A stretch of DNA of 39,309 bases from Thermoleophilia bacterium (GTDB taxonomy: Bacteria > Actinomycetota > Thermoleophilia > Miltoncostaeales > Miltoncostaeaceae): contig JALOLS010000010.1 in NCBI GenBank assembly GCA_025455865.1, forward strand, positions 1 through 39,309, read 5' to 3'. The notes beneath the pieces are model-generated. The model did not search any database and was not told the origin of the DNA. It was given only the letters and a program-made list of their open reading frames with translations. The translations under genes and the position numbers were made by a program. Below, in pieces: positions 5,379 to 12,921 of the stretch (position 1 is its first letter; each line of letters starts with the position of its first letter).

Positions 5379-8275
<2,897 letters not shown>

Positions 8276-8283
8276 TCGGCCGG

Positions 8284-8289
8284 ATCATA
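8284..8289 (-). promoter_or_regulatory. Candidate -10 box (TATGAT) of surE-ligA, leaderless type
   Basis: On the minus strand TATGAT is followed by 8 nt and then the GTG of surE. It is a near-consensus -10, in the 45-nt gap after truA. No -35 recognised and no Shine-Dalgarno before the GTG. Confidence 0.45.
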
Positions 8290-8320
8290 GACCCGGCACC
8301 CGCCGTCCCCGTGCGATGTG

Positions 8321-9601
8321 TCAGACGCCGGCCCGGCGCAGGATGGACGCGATGACCGGTCCCTTGGCCGCCGCGTAGTGGTTGGTGTCGGCCCACACCC
8401 GCCCGGCCAGCACCCGCTTGACCGCGGCGTAGCGGTCGCGGTCGGCGGCCGAGGCACGGAGCGCCTCGCGCAGGGCCAGGTACCGCGGGATCTCCGGTGC
8501 CCCGGCCGGCCACAGGTGCACGTTCGCCTCCCCGCCCGCGCCCCGGAAGGCCAGATGGCCGGGCTCGCGGACGCGCAGCGTGTAGCCGGCGGCCTCCATG
8601 CGCCACACCAGGTCGTCGCAAGGCCCGTCGACCGCCTCGACCACGGCCAGCAGGTCGACGACCGGCTTGGCCGCCAGCCCGGGGACCGCCGTCGACCCGA
8701 TGTGCTCCGCGGCCACCAGGTGCGGTCCGAGGGCGGCCGAGACCCGGGCGGCATGGACGCGGAAGACGTCGGCCCACCGCGGGTCGTGGGGCACCACCTC
8801 GACCCGCGCGGGCCGGCGCCCGCCGACGAGGGCGGCATCGAGCGCCGGGTCGTCCATGGCGACCCCCGCGTAGCGGACCCCGGTCAGGGTGAGCGGGTGG
8901 GCGGGCGCCGTCGGCCCGGCCGCGGCGCGTGGCGCCCCCGCGAGCAGGTCGTCGAGCCACTCCGGGCCGCGCCGGCCGCGGCCCACCAGCAGCATCGTGC
9001 CGGCGAGCACCCGCACCATGTGCCGCAGGAAGGCGTCCCCCTCCACCACCAGCACCACCTCGTCGCCGTGGGCCTGCCAGTCGCAGTCGACCAGCGTGCG
9101 GCGGAAGAAGACGTGCTGGGTCTCGGTGGGGGTGAACGCCCGGAAGTCGTGCTGCCCGATACAGCGGGCGGCCGCATCGCGCATGGCCTCGACCTCCAGG
9201 GGCCGCCCGTGATGGTGCAGCACCCGGCGGCGGCGCAGGGGCGCCGGCGGCCCCTGGAGCACCCGGAAGGCGTAGCGGCGGGTGACCGCGTCGCGGCGGG
9301 CGTCGAACCCCTCGGGGGCCTCGCCGACCGCCCGCGCGGCGAGGTCCGGGGGCAGGATGCCGGCGAGGCCGCGCAGCAGGCGCGGCGCCGGCATGTCGCT
9401 CCCGGTCACCACGCTCGCCACCTGCCCGGTGGCGTGCACGCCGGCGTCGGTGCGACCCGCCACGCTGATCGCAGCGTCGCCCAGGAGCGTCACCAGCGCC
9501 GCGTGCAGCACCCCCTCGACCGTGCGCCGGCCGGGCTGCGCCGCCCACCCGGCGAAGGCGGCCCCGTCGTACTCGAGATCCAGCCGCAGCACCCGTCCCA
9601 T
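8321..9601 (-). CDS. truA: Fusion: tRNA pseudouridine synthase A (TruA) + GrpB/UPF0157 nucleotidyltransferase-fold domain
   Basis: 426 aa in one unbroken frame. Residues 1-~248 are TruA, which makes pseudouridines 38-40 in tRNA anticodon arms: LEYDGAAFAGWA, AGRTDAGVHATGQV with catalytic Asp52, RRYAFRVLQG, and GDAFLRHMVRVLAGTMLLVG. Residues ~266-426 are a GrpB/UPF0157 domain: VVPHDPRWADVF, the family signature HIGSTAVPGLAAKPVVD (300-316), and the C-terminal Y-x2-VK and HYAAAKGPVI blocks. A linker of ~18 residues joins them. In actinobacteria the GrpB domain is known fused to dephospho-CoA kinase (CoaE); a fusion to TruA is unusual. ATG start, with TAGCAT 7 nt upstream (leaderless type). Both domains look complete. 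Confidence 0.92.
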   Translation of the reverse strand: MGRVLRLDLEYDGAAFAGWAAQPGRRTVEGVLHAALVTLLGDAAISVAGRTDAGVHATGQVASVVTGSDMPAPRLLRGLAGILPPDLAARAVGEAPEGFDARRDAVTRRYAFRVLQGPPAPLRRRRVLHHHGRPLEVEAMRDAAARCIGQHDFRAFTPTETQHVFFRRTLVDCDWQAHGDEVVLVVEGDAFLRHMVRVLAGTMLLVGRGRRGPEWLDDLLAGAPRAAAGPTAPAHPLTLTGVRYAGVAMDDPALDAALVGGRRPARVEVVPHDPRWADVFRVHAARVSAALGPHLVAAEHIGSTAVPGLAAKPVVDLLAVVEAVDGPCDDLVWRMEAAGYTLRVREPGHLAFRGAGGEANVHLWPAGAPEIPRYLALREALRASAADRDRYAAVKRVLAGRVWADTNHYAAAKGPVIASILRRAGV

Positions 9602-9608
9602 CCACCGG

Positions 9609-9614
9609 ATGCTA
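9609..9614 (-). promoter_or_regulatory. Candidate -10 box (TAGCAT) of truA, leaderless type
   Basis: TAGCAT ends 7 nt before the truA ATG on the minus strand. It lies 9 nt from the opposite-facing TATCAT box of the next gene, so the two promoters must overlap. Confidence 0.4.
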
Positions 9615-9623
9615 GGAGCCGCC

Positions 9624-9629
9624 TATCAT
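9624..9629 (+). promoter_or_regulatory. Candidate -10 box (TATCAT) of the spermidine-synthase-like gene
   Basis: TATCAT lies 22 nt before the ATG at 9652, leaving room for a short leader with the Shine-Dalgarno GAGGGGAG at 9641-9648. It overlaps the divergent truA promoter. Confidence 0.4.
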
Positions 9630-9651
9630 CGCCCGCGACCGAGGGGAGCCG

Positions 9652-11232
9652 ATGAGCGGATCGCGGGGCGCGGGGGCGCGCATGGCCGTGGTGGGGGTCG
9701 CGGTGGTGGTCTGCGGCGCCTCGACCCTCGCGATGGAGCTTGCCGCCAGCCGCGTGCTGGCCCCGCGCTTCGGCTCGGGGATCCAGGTGTGGGGGGCGCT
9801 GCTCGGCGTGGTGATGGCCGCGCTGGCCGCCGGCTACTGGCTCGGTGGCCGGCTGGCCGACCGCTGGCCCCGCACCGAGACGTTCGCCCTGACCGCGTTC
9901 GGCGGCGCCGTGCTGGTGGCGCTGGTCCCCGTCGTGGACGGGCCGCTCGGGGCCGCGGCCGAGTCGGTCACCGACCACCCCGGCTGGGGGGCGGCGCTCG
10001 CCACCCTGATGCTGTTCCTGCCGCCCTCGGTGCTGCTGGCCACCGCCGGGCCCATCGCGGTGCGCCTGCGCGAGGCCGACACCCGGCGCACCGGCCGGGC
10101 GAGCGGCGACGTGCTCGCGCTGTCGACCGTGGGGTCGATCGCCGGGTCGTTCGCCGCATCCTTCTGGCTCATCCAGGGGATCGGGGTCACGCGCACGTTC
10201 CTGCTGCTCGCCCTGGGGCTCGCGCTCTCCTCGGCCGCGCTCCTCGCGGTCGCCGGCCGGGTCGGCGCCGCGGCCGGCGCGGCGGCGACCACCCTCGGGG
10301 TGAGCGCGCTGGTGCTCCTGCCCTCGGGCGCCGCCCTCTCCCGGGACTCCGCCCCCGTGCGCGGCGCCGATGTCCTGTCCGACGTCGAGGGGCCCTATCA
10401 CCGGGTGAGCGTGATCCGGCAGGGCGACATGCGCGTGCTGGTGTTCGGGCAGATGTGGCAGAGCGCCTGGGTGCCCGGGCGCCCCCAGGAGCACCAGTTC
10501 GAGTACTCGATCGCGATGCAGGCCGGCCTCGCCCAGGCCGAACGGCGCGACGCGGTGCTCCACATCGGCCTGGGCGGCGCCACCATCCCCCGCGCGATCG
10601 CCGGCATCCGCCCCGGGGTGCGGCAGGAGGCGGTGGAGATCGACCCCACCGTGGTCGACGCCGCCGAGCGCTGGTTCGGCCTGCGCGACATCCGGGGCCT
10701 GGAGGTGCACACCGACGACGGCCGCCGGTGGCTGCGGCGCCATCCCGAGCGCCGCTACGACGTGATCCTGCTGGACGCCTACACCAGCGAGGGCATCCCG
10801 TTCCACCTGTTCACCCAGGAGTACGCCACGCTGCTCAGGCGCCACCTGGCTCCCGGCGGGGCGGTGGCGGTGAACCTCCACGGGGCGGCGACGGGTCCGG
10901 GGTCGCGGCTGCAGAAGGCCGTGCACCGGACGTTCGCCAGCCGCTTCCCGCACGTGACCACGTTCCTGTTGCCCGCCGGCCGCAGTGACTCGGTGCGGAA
11001 CATCGTGCTGGTCGCCTCCGAGCGGCCCGTGCCCTCGGTGGCCGCGCTGGAGGCGCGCTTCGACGCCTGGCGCCGGGGCCGCGGCACCGGCATGGACGGC
11101 CTGCTCGCCTCCCGGGTCGACCGCCCGGACCCCGCCGCGCGCCTGTTCACCGACGACCTGGCGGCCACCGACGCGGTGCTGGACCCCGCCCTGCGCGACG
11201 CCGCGCTGGCCCAGCGGCCGCGGGGGGGCTGA
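9652..11232 (+). CDS. Membrane-anchored spermidine-synthase-like protein (fused membrane/methyltransferase-fold domain)
   Basis: 526 aa. The N-terminal half holds about 7 hydrophobic helices (first ~11-30, then ~45-60, 80-100, 115-135, 160-180, 185-205, 210-230) with MFS-like loops such as AGYWLGGRLADRWPRTE. The C-terminal half has the spermine/spermidine synthase Rossmann fold: HIGLGGATIPRAI near residues 304-316 as the nucleotide loop, EIDPTVVDAA with acidic E329/D331, TDDGRRWL, and DAYTSEGIPFHLFT. This matches the fused MFS/spermidine synthase family common in actinobacteria, whose substrate is mostly unknown; polyamine synthesis should not be assumed. The start is chosen by GAGGGGAG 3 nt before ATG 9652; Met at 9682 is a weaker alternative. 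Divergent from truA. Confidence 0.85.
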   Translation: MSGSRGAGARMAVVGVAVVVCGASTLAMELAASRVLAPRFGSGIQVWGALLGVVMAALAAGYWLGGRLADRWPRTETFALTAFGGAVLVALVPVVDGPLGAAAESVTDHPGWGAALATLMLFLPPSVLLATAGPIAVRLREADTRRTGRASGDVLALSTVGSIAGSFAASFWLIQGIGVTRTFLLLALGLALSSAALLAVAGRVGAAAGAAATTLGVSALVLLPSGAALSRDSAPVRGADVLSDVEGPYHRVSVIRQGDMRVLVFGQMWQSAWVPGRPQEHQFEYSIAMQAGLAQAERRDAVLHIGLGGATIPRAIAGIRPGVRQEAVEIDPTVVDAAERWFGLRDIRGLEVHTDDGRRWLRRHPERRYDVILLDAYTSEGIPFHLFTQEYATLLRRHLAPGGAVAVNLHGAATGPGSRLQKAVHRTFASRFPHVTTFLLPAGRSDSVRNIVLVASERPVPSVAALEARFDAWRRGRGTGMDGLLASRVDRPDPAARLFTDDLAATDAVLDPALRDAALAQRPRGG

Positions 11233-11246
11233 GCGCCCGCACGGCC

Positions 11247-11261
11247 CCGGCCGGCGGCCGG
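11247..11261. terminator. Short hairpin between convergent genes
   Basis: CCGGCC-GGC-GGCCGG, a 6-bp stem with a 3-nt loop, between the ends of the spermidine-synthase-like gene and the PAS-LuxR gene. It could act on both strands. No T-run. Confidence 0.25.
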
Positions 11262-11263
11262 AC

Positions 11264-11872
11264 TCAGACGAGGCCCTCCCGGCGCGCCCGGGCGATCGCC
11301 GCAAGCTGGGAGTGACAGCCGAGCTGGGCCAGGATCGCGTGGATGTGGTTGCGCACGGTCGCCTCCTTGATGCCGAGCCGCCGCCCGATCGCCCTGGCCT
11401 GGCGCCCCTCGGCCAGGAGCGCCAGCACCTGCTGCTGTCGCGCGGTCAGCCGGGCCGCCCCGGCGGATGCGGCCCCGCCCGCGCGCGCCGCACGGGCGGG
11501 CTCGGGCCCGGGGGCGGGCTGGAGCAGGTGCAGGATCACCTGGCGCGTGCCGGACCTCAGCGTGATCGTGGACAGCAGCACGCTCCGCCGGCCGCAGGGG
11601 GTCGGCACGAGGGCCTCGCGCCCGGCGACCGGGCAGCCCGCCCGCGCCAGCCGCCCGTGCAGGCAGTCCGGGCCGCAGACCGCGAGCCCGGAGCGGTCGA
11701 CCGCGTCGACCACCTCCCAGCAGCCGCGGCCGACGGCATCCGCGGAGGGGATCCCGGTCAGCCGCTCGGCCGCCGCGTTCCAGCCCACGACCCGCAGGTG
11801 GGTGTCGCACATGACCAGGGGCTGGCCCGACGTGAACGTCGCCAGCCCGTTCTTGGCGCGCACCGCGGTCAT
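11264..11872 (-). CDS. PAS-domain LuxR-type transcription regulator with a Cys cluster
   Basis: 202 aa from the ATG at 11872, preferred because GAAGG lies 8 nt upstream; a GTG at 11902 (+10 aa) lacks a ribosome-binding site. Residues ~16-60 are a PAS-type sensor (PLVMCDTHLRVVGWNAAAER). A Cys-rich part follows (C51, C66-x3-C70, C80, C93). Similar Cys-rich extensions occur in PAS sensors and could bind a metal or sense redox; this is inference. The C-terminal ~60 residues are a GerE/LuxR helix-turn-helix (LTARQQQVLALLAEGRQARA, then LGIKEATVRNHIHAIL), which binds DNA. There is no response-regulator receiver domain, so input is likely through PAS. Targets unknown. It stands alone and is convergent with the upstream plus-strand gene. 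Confidence 0.85.
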   Translation of the reverse strand: MTAVRAKNGLATFTSGQPLVMCDTHLRVVGWNAAAERLTGIPSADAVGRGCWEVVDAVDRSGLAVCGPDCLHGRLARAGCPVAGREALVPTPCGRRSVLLSTITLRSGTRQVILHLLQPAPGPEPARAARAGGAASAGAARLTARQQQVLALLAEGRQARAIGRRLGIKEATVRNHIHAILAQLGCHSQLAAIARARREGLV

Positions 11873-12041
11873 GGTGACGACCTTCGGGCGCGCGCCGGGC
11901 ACGGTGCATCCGCGTCGGCCCGGATGACGGATGTGGTCAACTACGGATCCTCACGGCCCGATCCGGGGCCCGGGCCGAGGCGCGGCGATCGGGGGGTGAG
12001 GGCCGGACGGCCGCCGCGCGCGATCTCCTGCCCGGGGGGCG

Positions 12042-12062
12042 GCCCGGGTGCGGCGCCCGGGC
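12042..12062 (-). terminator. Candidate terminator after the ribosomal supercluster
   Basis: Perfect 7-bp inverted repeat (GCCCGGG, 7-nt loop, CCCGGGC) about 160 nt after the last gene of the minus-strand run. No T-run, so only suggestive. Confidence 0.3.
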
Positions 12063-12167
12063 GGGCGGGAGGGTCGCCGCAGACGGGCGCCCCTCCGGAG
12101 ATCGTGCCGACTGCTGCGGCGCCCGGCCCACGCTGGGCATTCCAGCCCACGCGACCCCGCCGCCGCG

Positions 12168-12183
12168 TGATCAATTCTGATCA
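12168..12183. repeat. Doubled palindrome TGATCA-N4-TGATCA
   Basis: Two copies of the palindromic hexamer TGATCA are spaced by ATTC. Both copies are self-complementary, so the site could be a dimeric operator or a small hairpin. The AT content is unusual here. It lies about 300 nt upstream of the PAS-LuxR start. Confidence 0.4.
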
Positions 12184-12222
12184 GGAGGCGGAGGGTCGGC
12201 TCAGGCCCCGGGGACGGGCGAG

Positions 12223-12921
12223 CTAGAGCGGGGTGAAGCCCAGCCCCACCCGGAACGGGAAGAACTGGTAGTAGCTCGTGGCGTTGCGGAGCACCTGGGC
12301 CGAGGTGTAGCCGAGCGTCGTGTTCAGGAAGAGCGTGCCGCCCTGGGGCCCGGTGACGGTCTGCCAGGTGAAGCCGCCGGCCCGGCCGAGGCGCCGCTCG
12401 GTCACCCGCTGGAAGCCCCCGGAGAACCGCCGCTGGAGGTCCAGGTACACGGTGGCGGTGTTCCCGGTGCCGCGCTGCGCGACCAGCTGCACCCGGGTGA
12501 CGCCCTGGGTGGCGGTCGCGAGGACCGCCTTGCCCCCGGTCGGGGTGTTGCCTCCACCGCACGACTGGTTGAACAGGTCCTTGACCACCGCGACCGGTCC
12601 GATGCCGTCGCAGAAGTTCTGGCCCTGGTCGATGACCCGCCAGGTGGAGCCCGAGCCGGTCAGGAGCATCTGGGGCACGGGGACCGGGCCGCGGTAGCGC
12701 GCGTTCGGCGTCAGGTTCGCCGCGGCGTAGGTCGGGTCGACCGAGGAGACCCGGATGGTGTTCACCTGGTAGCCGCTGAACGTGTAGCCCTGGGCGGTGG
12801 TGAACTGGTTGATGCCGTTCACGATGCCGTCGATCTCGGTCTGGGTCGCCGGCTGGGTCGCGAGGGCCGGCCCCGTGGCGGCGAGCGCCACGGCCACGCC
12901 GGCGAGCGCGCGGCGCGTCAC
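12223..12921 (-). CDS. Secreted protein of unknown function, start overlapping the rplQ stop
   Basis: 232 aa. The start is the GTG at 12921; its last two bases begin the rplQ TGA (GTGA), so translation is very probably coupled to L17. It opens with a signal peptide (MTRRALAGVAVALAATGPAL, cleavage near ALA-TQ). The mature part is rich in Thr, Gly, Asn and aromatics, beta-like, with just two cysteines (C104, C121) that could form a disulfide after export. No known motif recognised; not an enzyme I can name. In many actinobacteria truA follows rplQ; here this gene occupies that place and truA is about 3 kb away. Confidence 0.75.
   Translation of the reverse strand: MTRRALAGVAVALAATGPALATQPATQTEIDGIVNGINQFTTAQGYTFSGYQVNTIRVSSVDPTYAAANLTPNARYRGPVPVPQMLLTGSGSTWRVIDQGQNFCDGIGPVAVVKDLFNQSCGGGNTPTGGKAVLATATQGVTRVQLVAQRGTGNTATVYLDLQRRFSGGFQRVTERRLGRAGGFTWQTVTGPQGGTLFLNTTLGYTSAQVLRNATSYYQFFPFRVGLGFTPL

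Follow-up and report, generated by a model that had tools for sequence, protein, structure and literature searches.

A single minus-strand open reading frame (ORF) in the analyzed stretch of a Thermoleophilia bacterium genome (the window; 39,309 nucleotides) joins a complete tRNA pseudouridine synthase, TruA, to a complete GrpB/UPF0157 domain (Table 1). The TruA-GrpB protein is a genuine, modest new domain architecture. It extends by one the list of domain partners of GrpB, whose family is widespread but has no settled function. It probably arose by the lineage-specific joining of an inserted grpB gene to truA, giving a two-domain product whose halves are likely to fold independently.

TruA and GrpB are encoded in one frame

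The fused ORF begins with ATG and ends with TGA without an internal stop, and the preliminary description of it as one intact frame holds, the frame being open throughout and both domains complete. The genome is a draft assembly of 186 contigs with a completeness figure of 98%, and profile searches of the whole genome produced a single TruA match and a single GrpB match, both within the fused ORF; no 16S gene was found in the genome. The open frame alone is little proof of a fusion, because the DNA is GC-rich and both alternative frames are also stop-free across the GrpB half. At the level of sequence, the evidence for the fusion is that homology to both families lies in one reading frame, uninterrupted by a stop codon.

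Table 1. Features of the fused ORF and the genes downstream of it (window coordinates)
Feature	Coordinates	Strand	Remarks
ligA	5379..7463	-	Downstream of surE
surE	7463..8275	-	PF01975; downstream of the fused ORF; follows truA in relatives (synteny)
TruA-GrpB fused ORF	8321..9601	-	426 aa; single open frame, both families above cut-off
GrpB/UPF0157 domain, aa 267-423	8333..8803	-	PF04229, 133.8 bits; predicted fold similar to 2nrk and 6n39
Junction/linker, aa 246-266	8804..8866	-	GVAMDDPALDAALVGGRRPAR; apparently mostly native N-terminal GrpB leader; low pLDDT in both models
Internal ATG, codon 249 (Met249)	8855..8857	-	In-frame; located where standalone GrpB leaders begin
TruA domain, aa 1-245	8867..9601	-	TIGR00071, 159.6 bits; ends immediately past the final strand (LTLTGVRY)
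Codon of catalytic Asp52 (GRTD)	9446..9448	-	Invariant in 35 relatives

The TruA half exceeds the TIGR00071 cut-off of 142.85 bits, with aa 5-238 covering profile positions 3-227 of 228. Asp52, previously proposed as the catalytic residue, is found within the GRTDAGVHA motif and is unchanged in all 35 relatives, and nearly all conserved TruA columns are retained. A structure predicted with only TruA rows in the alignment had pLDDT values mostly above 90 over aa 1-240 and poor values for the rest of the protein, as expected without GrpB rows. The protein resembles known tRNA pseudouridine(38-40) synthases (1vs3, 1dj0, and 2nqp) over the whole family length, in the GRTD motif, and in passing the NCBIfam cut-off, and it differs from them in its C-terminal GrpB domain. 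On family grounds, the TruA half is very likely to be active as a pseudouridine synthase.

The GrpB half was likewise found to be complete, as first described: its Pfam score is far above the cut-off of 25.5 bits, the match extends over profile positions 2-159 of 159, and HIGSTAVPGLAAKPVVD is present. Among columns conserved across 47 GrpBs, the fused copy differs at four (Y to H, P to A, F to L, and D to E), and the first two departures occur in several other GrpBs as well. The two halves were modeled separately; GrpB, modeled alone with five viral-contig relatives, gave a pLDDT of 87.4 and a pTM of 0.81. The best structural match of this model was the Enterococcus faecalis GrpB 2nrk (TM 0.77/0.83, E 5.8e-13), and CoaE-GrpB 6n39 was also matched, so the predicted structure agrees with the nucleotidyltransferase (NTase)-like fold initially suggested. 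The likeness to the E. faecalis protein comprises the full-length domain, the predicted fold, and the conserved residues, the difference being that the E. faecalis GrpB is standalone whereas the GrpB described here is joined to TruA.

The junction resembles a GrpB leader

The junction sequence, GVAMDDPALDAALVGGRRPAR, is similar to the N-terminal leaders with which standalone GrpBs begin; ..LIGGRE.. occurs among these leaders, and in several the pattern ..D..L(I/V)GG.. precedes the domain. Because the junction is leader-like, Met249 is probably the former GrpB start codon, and it is perhaps still in use. For the GCGGGGG stretch upstream of ATG249, a duplex energy of -9.8 kcal/mol with the anti-Shine-Dalgarno sequence was calculated, compared with -10.3 kcal/mol for rplQ and -6.2 kcal/mol for truA; this value is close to, not past, the 5% tail of the background at the GC content of the ORF (5th percentile -11.0). 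The position of ATG249 at the leader start of standalone GrpBs, together with this modest purine-rich stretch, would suit production of GrpB also, or mainly, as a separate protein, the fusion then being the read-through form of two coupled genes. However, pairing of this strength is near background for a GC-rich ORF, and we regard separate production as rather unlikely.

The fusion is found in one genome, and the sampled relatives keep truA and grpB apart

The set of genomes searched represents the genus by this species alone. With the whole protein as query, matches were obtained in 96 of 101 genomes (this one counted), and only the match in this genome spans both halves. All 29 sampled same-family truA genes end 0-25 residues past the last strand, before any GrpB; rplQ lies upstream in 29 of 29 of these loci and surE is next in 22 of 29 on the stretches fetched, with the truA stop overlapping the surE start in several of them. 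In a phylum-wide sample in which 380 of 396 genomes were matched, no other spanning match was present among the matches listed (to about E 1e-43), a limit beyond which weak fusions in distant genomes may have escaped notice. Fusions outside the phylum were sought through a scan of genome contigs, which included a junction peptide among its patterns and returned 18 TruA loci, none with an adjoining GrpB, and through plasmid records, none of which covered 80% of the query. One contig, CAMCDF010000068.1, bears the name Bifidobacterium breve in its record, a label that looks wrong: its truA coordinates coincide with those of a contig from the family of the window, and a TruA identity of 60% and the gene order are in line with that family.

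GrpB itself is patchily distributed in the class, being detected with the PF04229 profile in 80 of 399 genomes; a protein query with the GrpB half, for which few candidates were scored per genome, detected it in one other genome of the 399. The closest GrpBs found are about 49% identical to the fused copy. One other same-family genome was seen with a GrpB, which is 35% identical and encoded on a different contig from the truA of that genome, and truA was absent from all flanks fetched for about 50 GrpB loci. A conserved TruA-GrpB family would be expected in several related genomes; the preliminary description had looked to many hits in one clade for support, and no second fusion was detected among the relatives or the phylum matches listed. 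It had also named separate genes in related genomes as a sign against the fusion, and the relatives bear this out in part: the sampled same-family truA genes do stop short of GrpB and the other GrpBs are not near truA, but the fusion in this genome stands. The separate genes in relatives argue against a conserved fusion, not against a fusion in this genome.

Although the assembly is a draft and the fusion was observed in one genome only, it is very improbable that the join is an artefact in which the truA stop was erased or unrelated pieces were put together, since across codons 236-266 a stop could be produced by one substitution only at Tyr244, which is kept in 34 of 35 TruA relatives, one indel would not recover a pair of normal genes because neither of the other two frames contains a stop in the GrpB half, codon composition is uniform across the join (GC3 of 0.93-1.0 through the linker and junction), and the gene order past GrpB (surE, ligA) is the same as the order after truA in relatives. 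Sequencing error is thus unlikely as a simple cause of the fusion, as is a chimeric or erroneous assembly at the join.

The preferred explanation remains a lineage-specific joining of two neighboring genes. In the order of events that we infer, an insertion in an ancestor of the species would have put grpB between truA and surE, and loss of the truA stop would then have brought the two coding sequences into one frame, with the GrpB start kept as Met249. Stop codons are rare in DNA very rich in G and C, and a lone lineage-specific join beside a core gene is what would be expected from stop-codon loss between adjacent genes. The TruA half would serve as the sole tRNA pseudouridine-38/39/40 synthase of the cell, and the GrpB half would fold apart and keep its standalone role, tethered by a short flexible leader; both halves are presumed to be active.

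The gene order in the window is truA-[grpB]-surE-ligA. The genes rplQ and truA, which sit close in relatives, are about 3.3 kb apart in the window (9652-12900), so that the truA cluster is set apart from the ribosomal-protein cluster. The intervening DNA contains a spermidine-synthase-like gene on the opposite strand, a PAS-LuxR regulator, and one further ORF. Promoter- and terminator-like sites were sought at positions 7000-10000 and none was found, and a defence-system search gave no match.

What the fusion suggests about GrpB function

TruA is in none of the five GrpB architectures that have been reported (PMC2765170), in keeping with the initial remark that a link between GrpB and a tRNA modification enzyme is unusual, and a text search of the literature found no paper naming both TruA and GrpB. 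In the only functional study located, the GrpB domain is reported to help Mycobacterium tuberculosis CoaE fold (PMC2765170). As in the actinobacterial CoaE-GrpB protein (Rv1631; 6n39), GrpB here sits at the C terminus of a housekeeping enzyme; in contrast to that protein, the partner is TruA, the CoaE of this genome is encoded on another contig, and a second GrpB was not found. There is no obvious common substrate among CoaE, acetyltransferase, deaminase, and TruA, and a generic passenger or folding role explains this no less well than a role in RNA would.

The fusion had been put forward as a clue that GrpB acts on RNA or tRNA, and the tether might then reflect an action on tRNA, GrpB serving, for instance, as a nucleotidyl transferase or an RNA-binding partner of TruA. 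After its own family, the GrpB model matches uridylyl transferases, OAS, and CCA-adding enzymes, and its likeness to CCA-adding enzymes and to uridylyl transferases that act on RNA termini is consistent with such a role, albeit at low TM (about 0.4-0.5). Against it are the failure of the fusion to recur, the absence of truA as a neighbor in the GrpB loci, the incomplete NTase-like site described below, and the reported partners of GrpB, which are otherwise CoaE, acetyltransferases, and a deaminase (PMC2765170). One fusion in one draft genome, with sampled relatives that keep the genes apart, does not support this clue, and the step from fusion to tRNA role is weak because a single join can be explained by stop-codon loss where stops are scarce. 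We consider it highly doubtful that GrpB handles RNA or nucleotides and works with TruA on tRNA, with the fusion as a rare trace of that partnership; recurrence of the fusion in a clade, if true, would be a real functional clue.

NTases carry a second acidic residue two positions after the first Asp. The NTase-like site of the GrpB half retains the GS motif and Asp68 (GrpB-half numbering) but lacks the second D-x-D carboxylate, residue 70 being non-acidic in 13 of 13 aligned sequences from the class, and the hGS motif followed by D-x-D carboxylates that is expected of an active NTase superfamily enzyme is therefore incomplete. A more complete NTase-like site may persist in some GrpBs: one of the five viral GrpBs, encoded on viral contig IMGVR_UViG_3300048919_000218 (2501-3025), reads Asp-Ile-Asp at the place occupied by a single Asp in the other aligned GrpBs.
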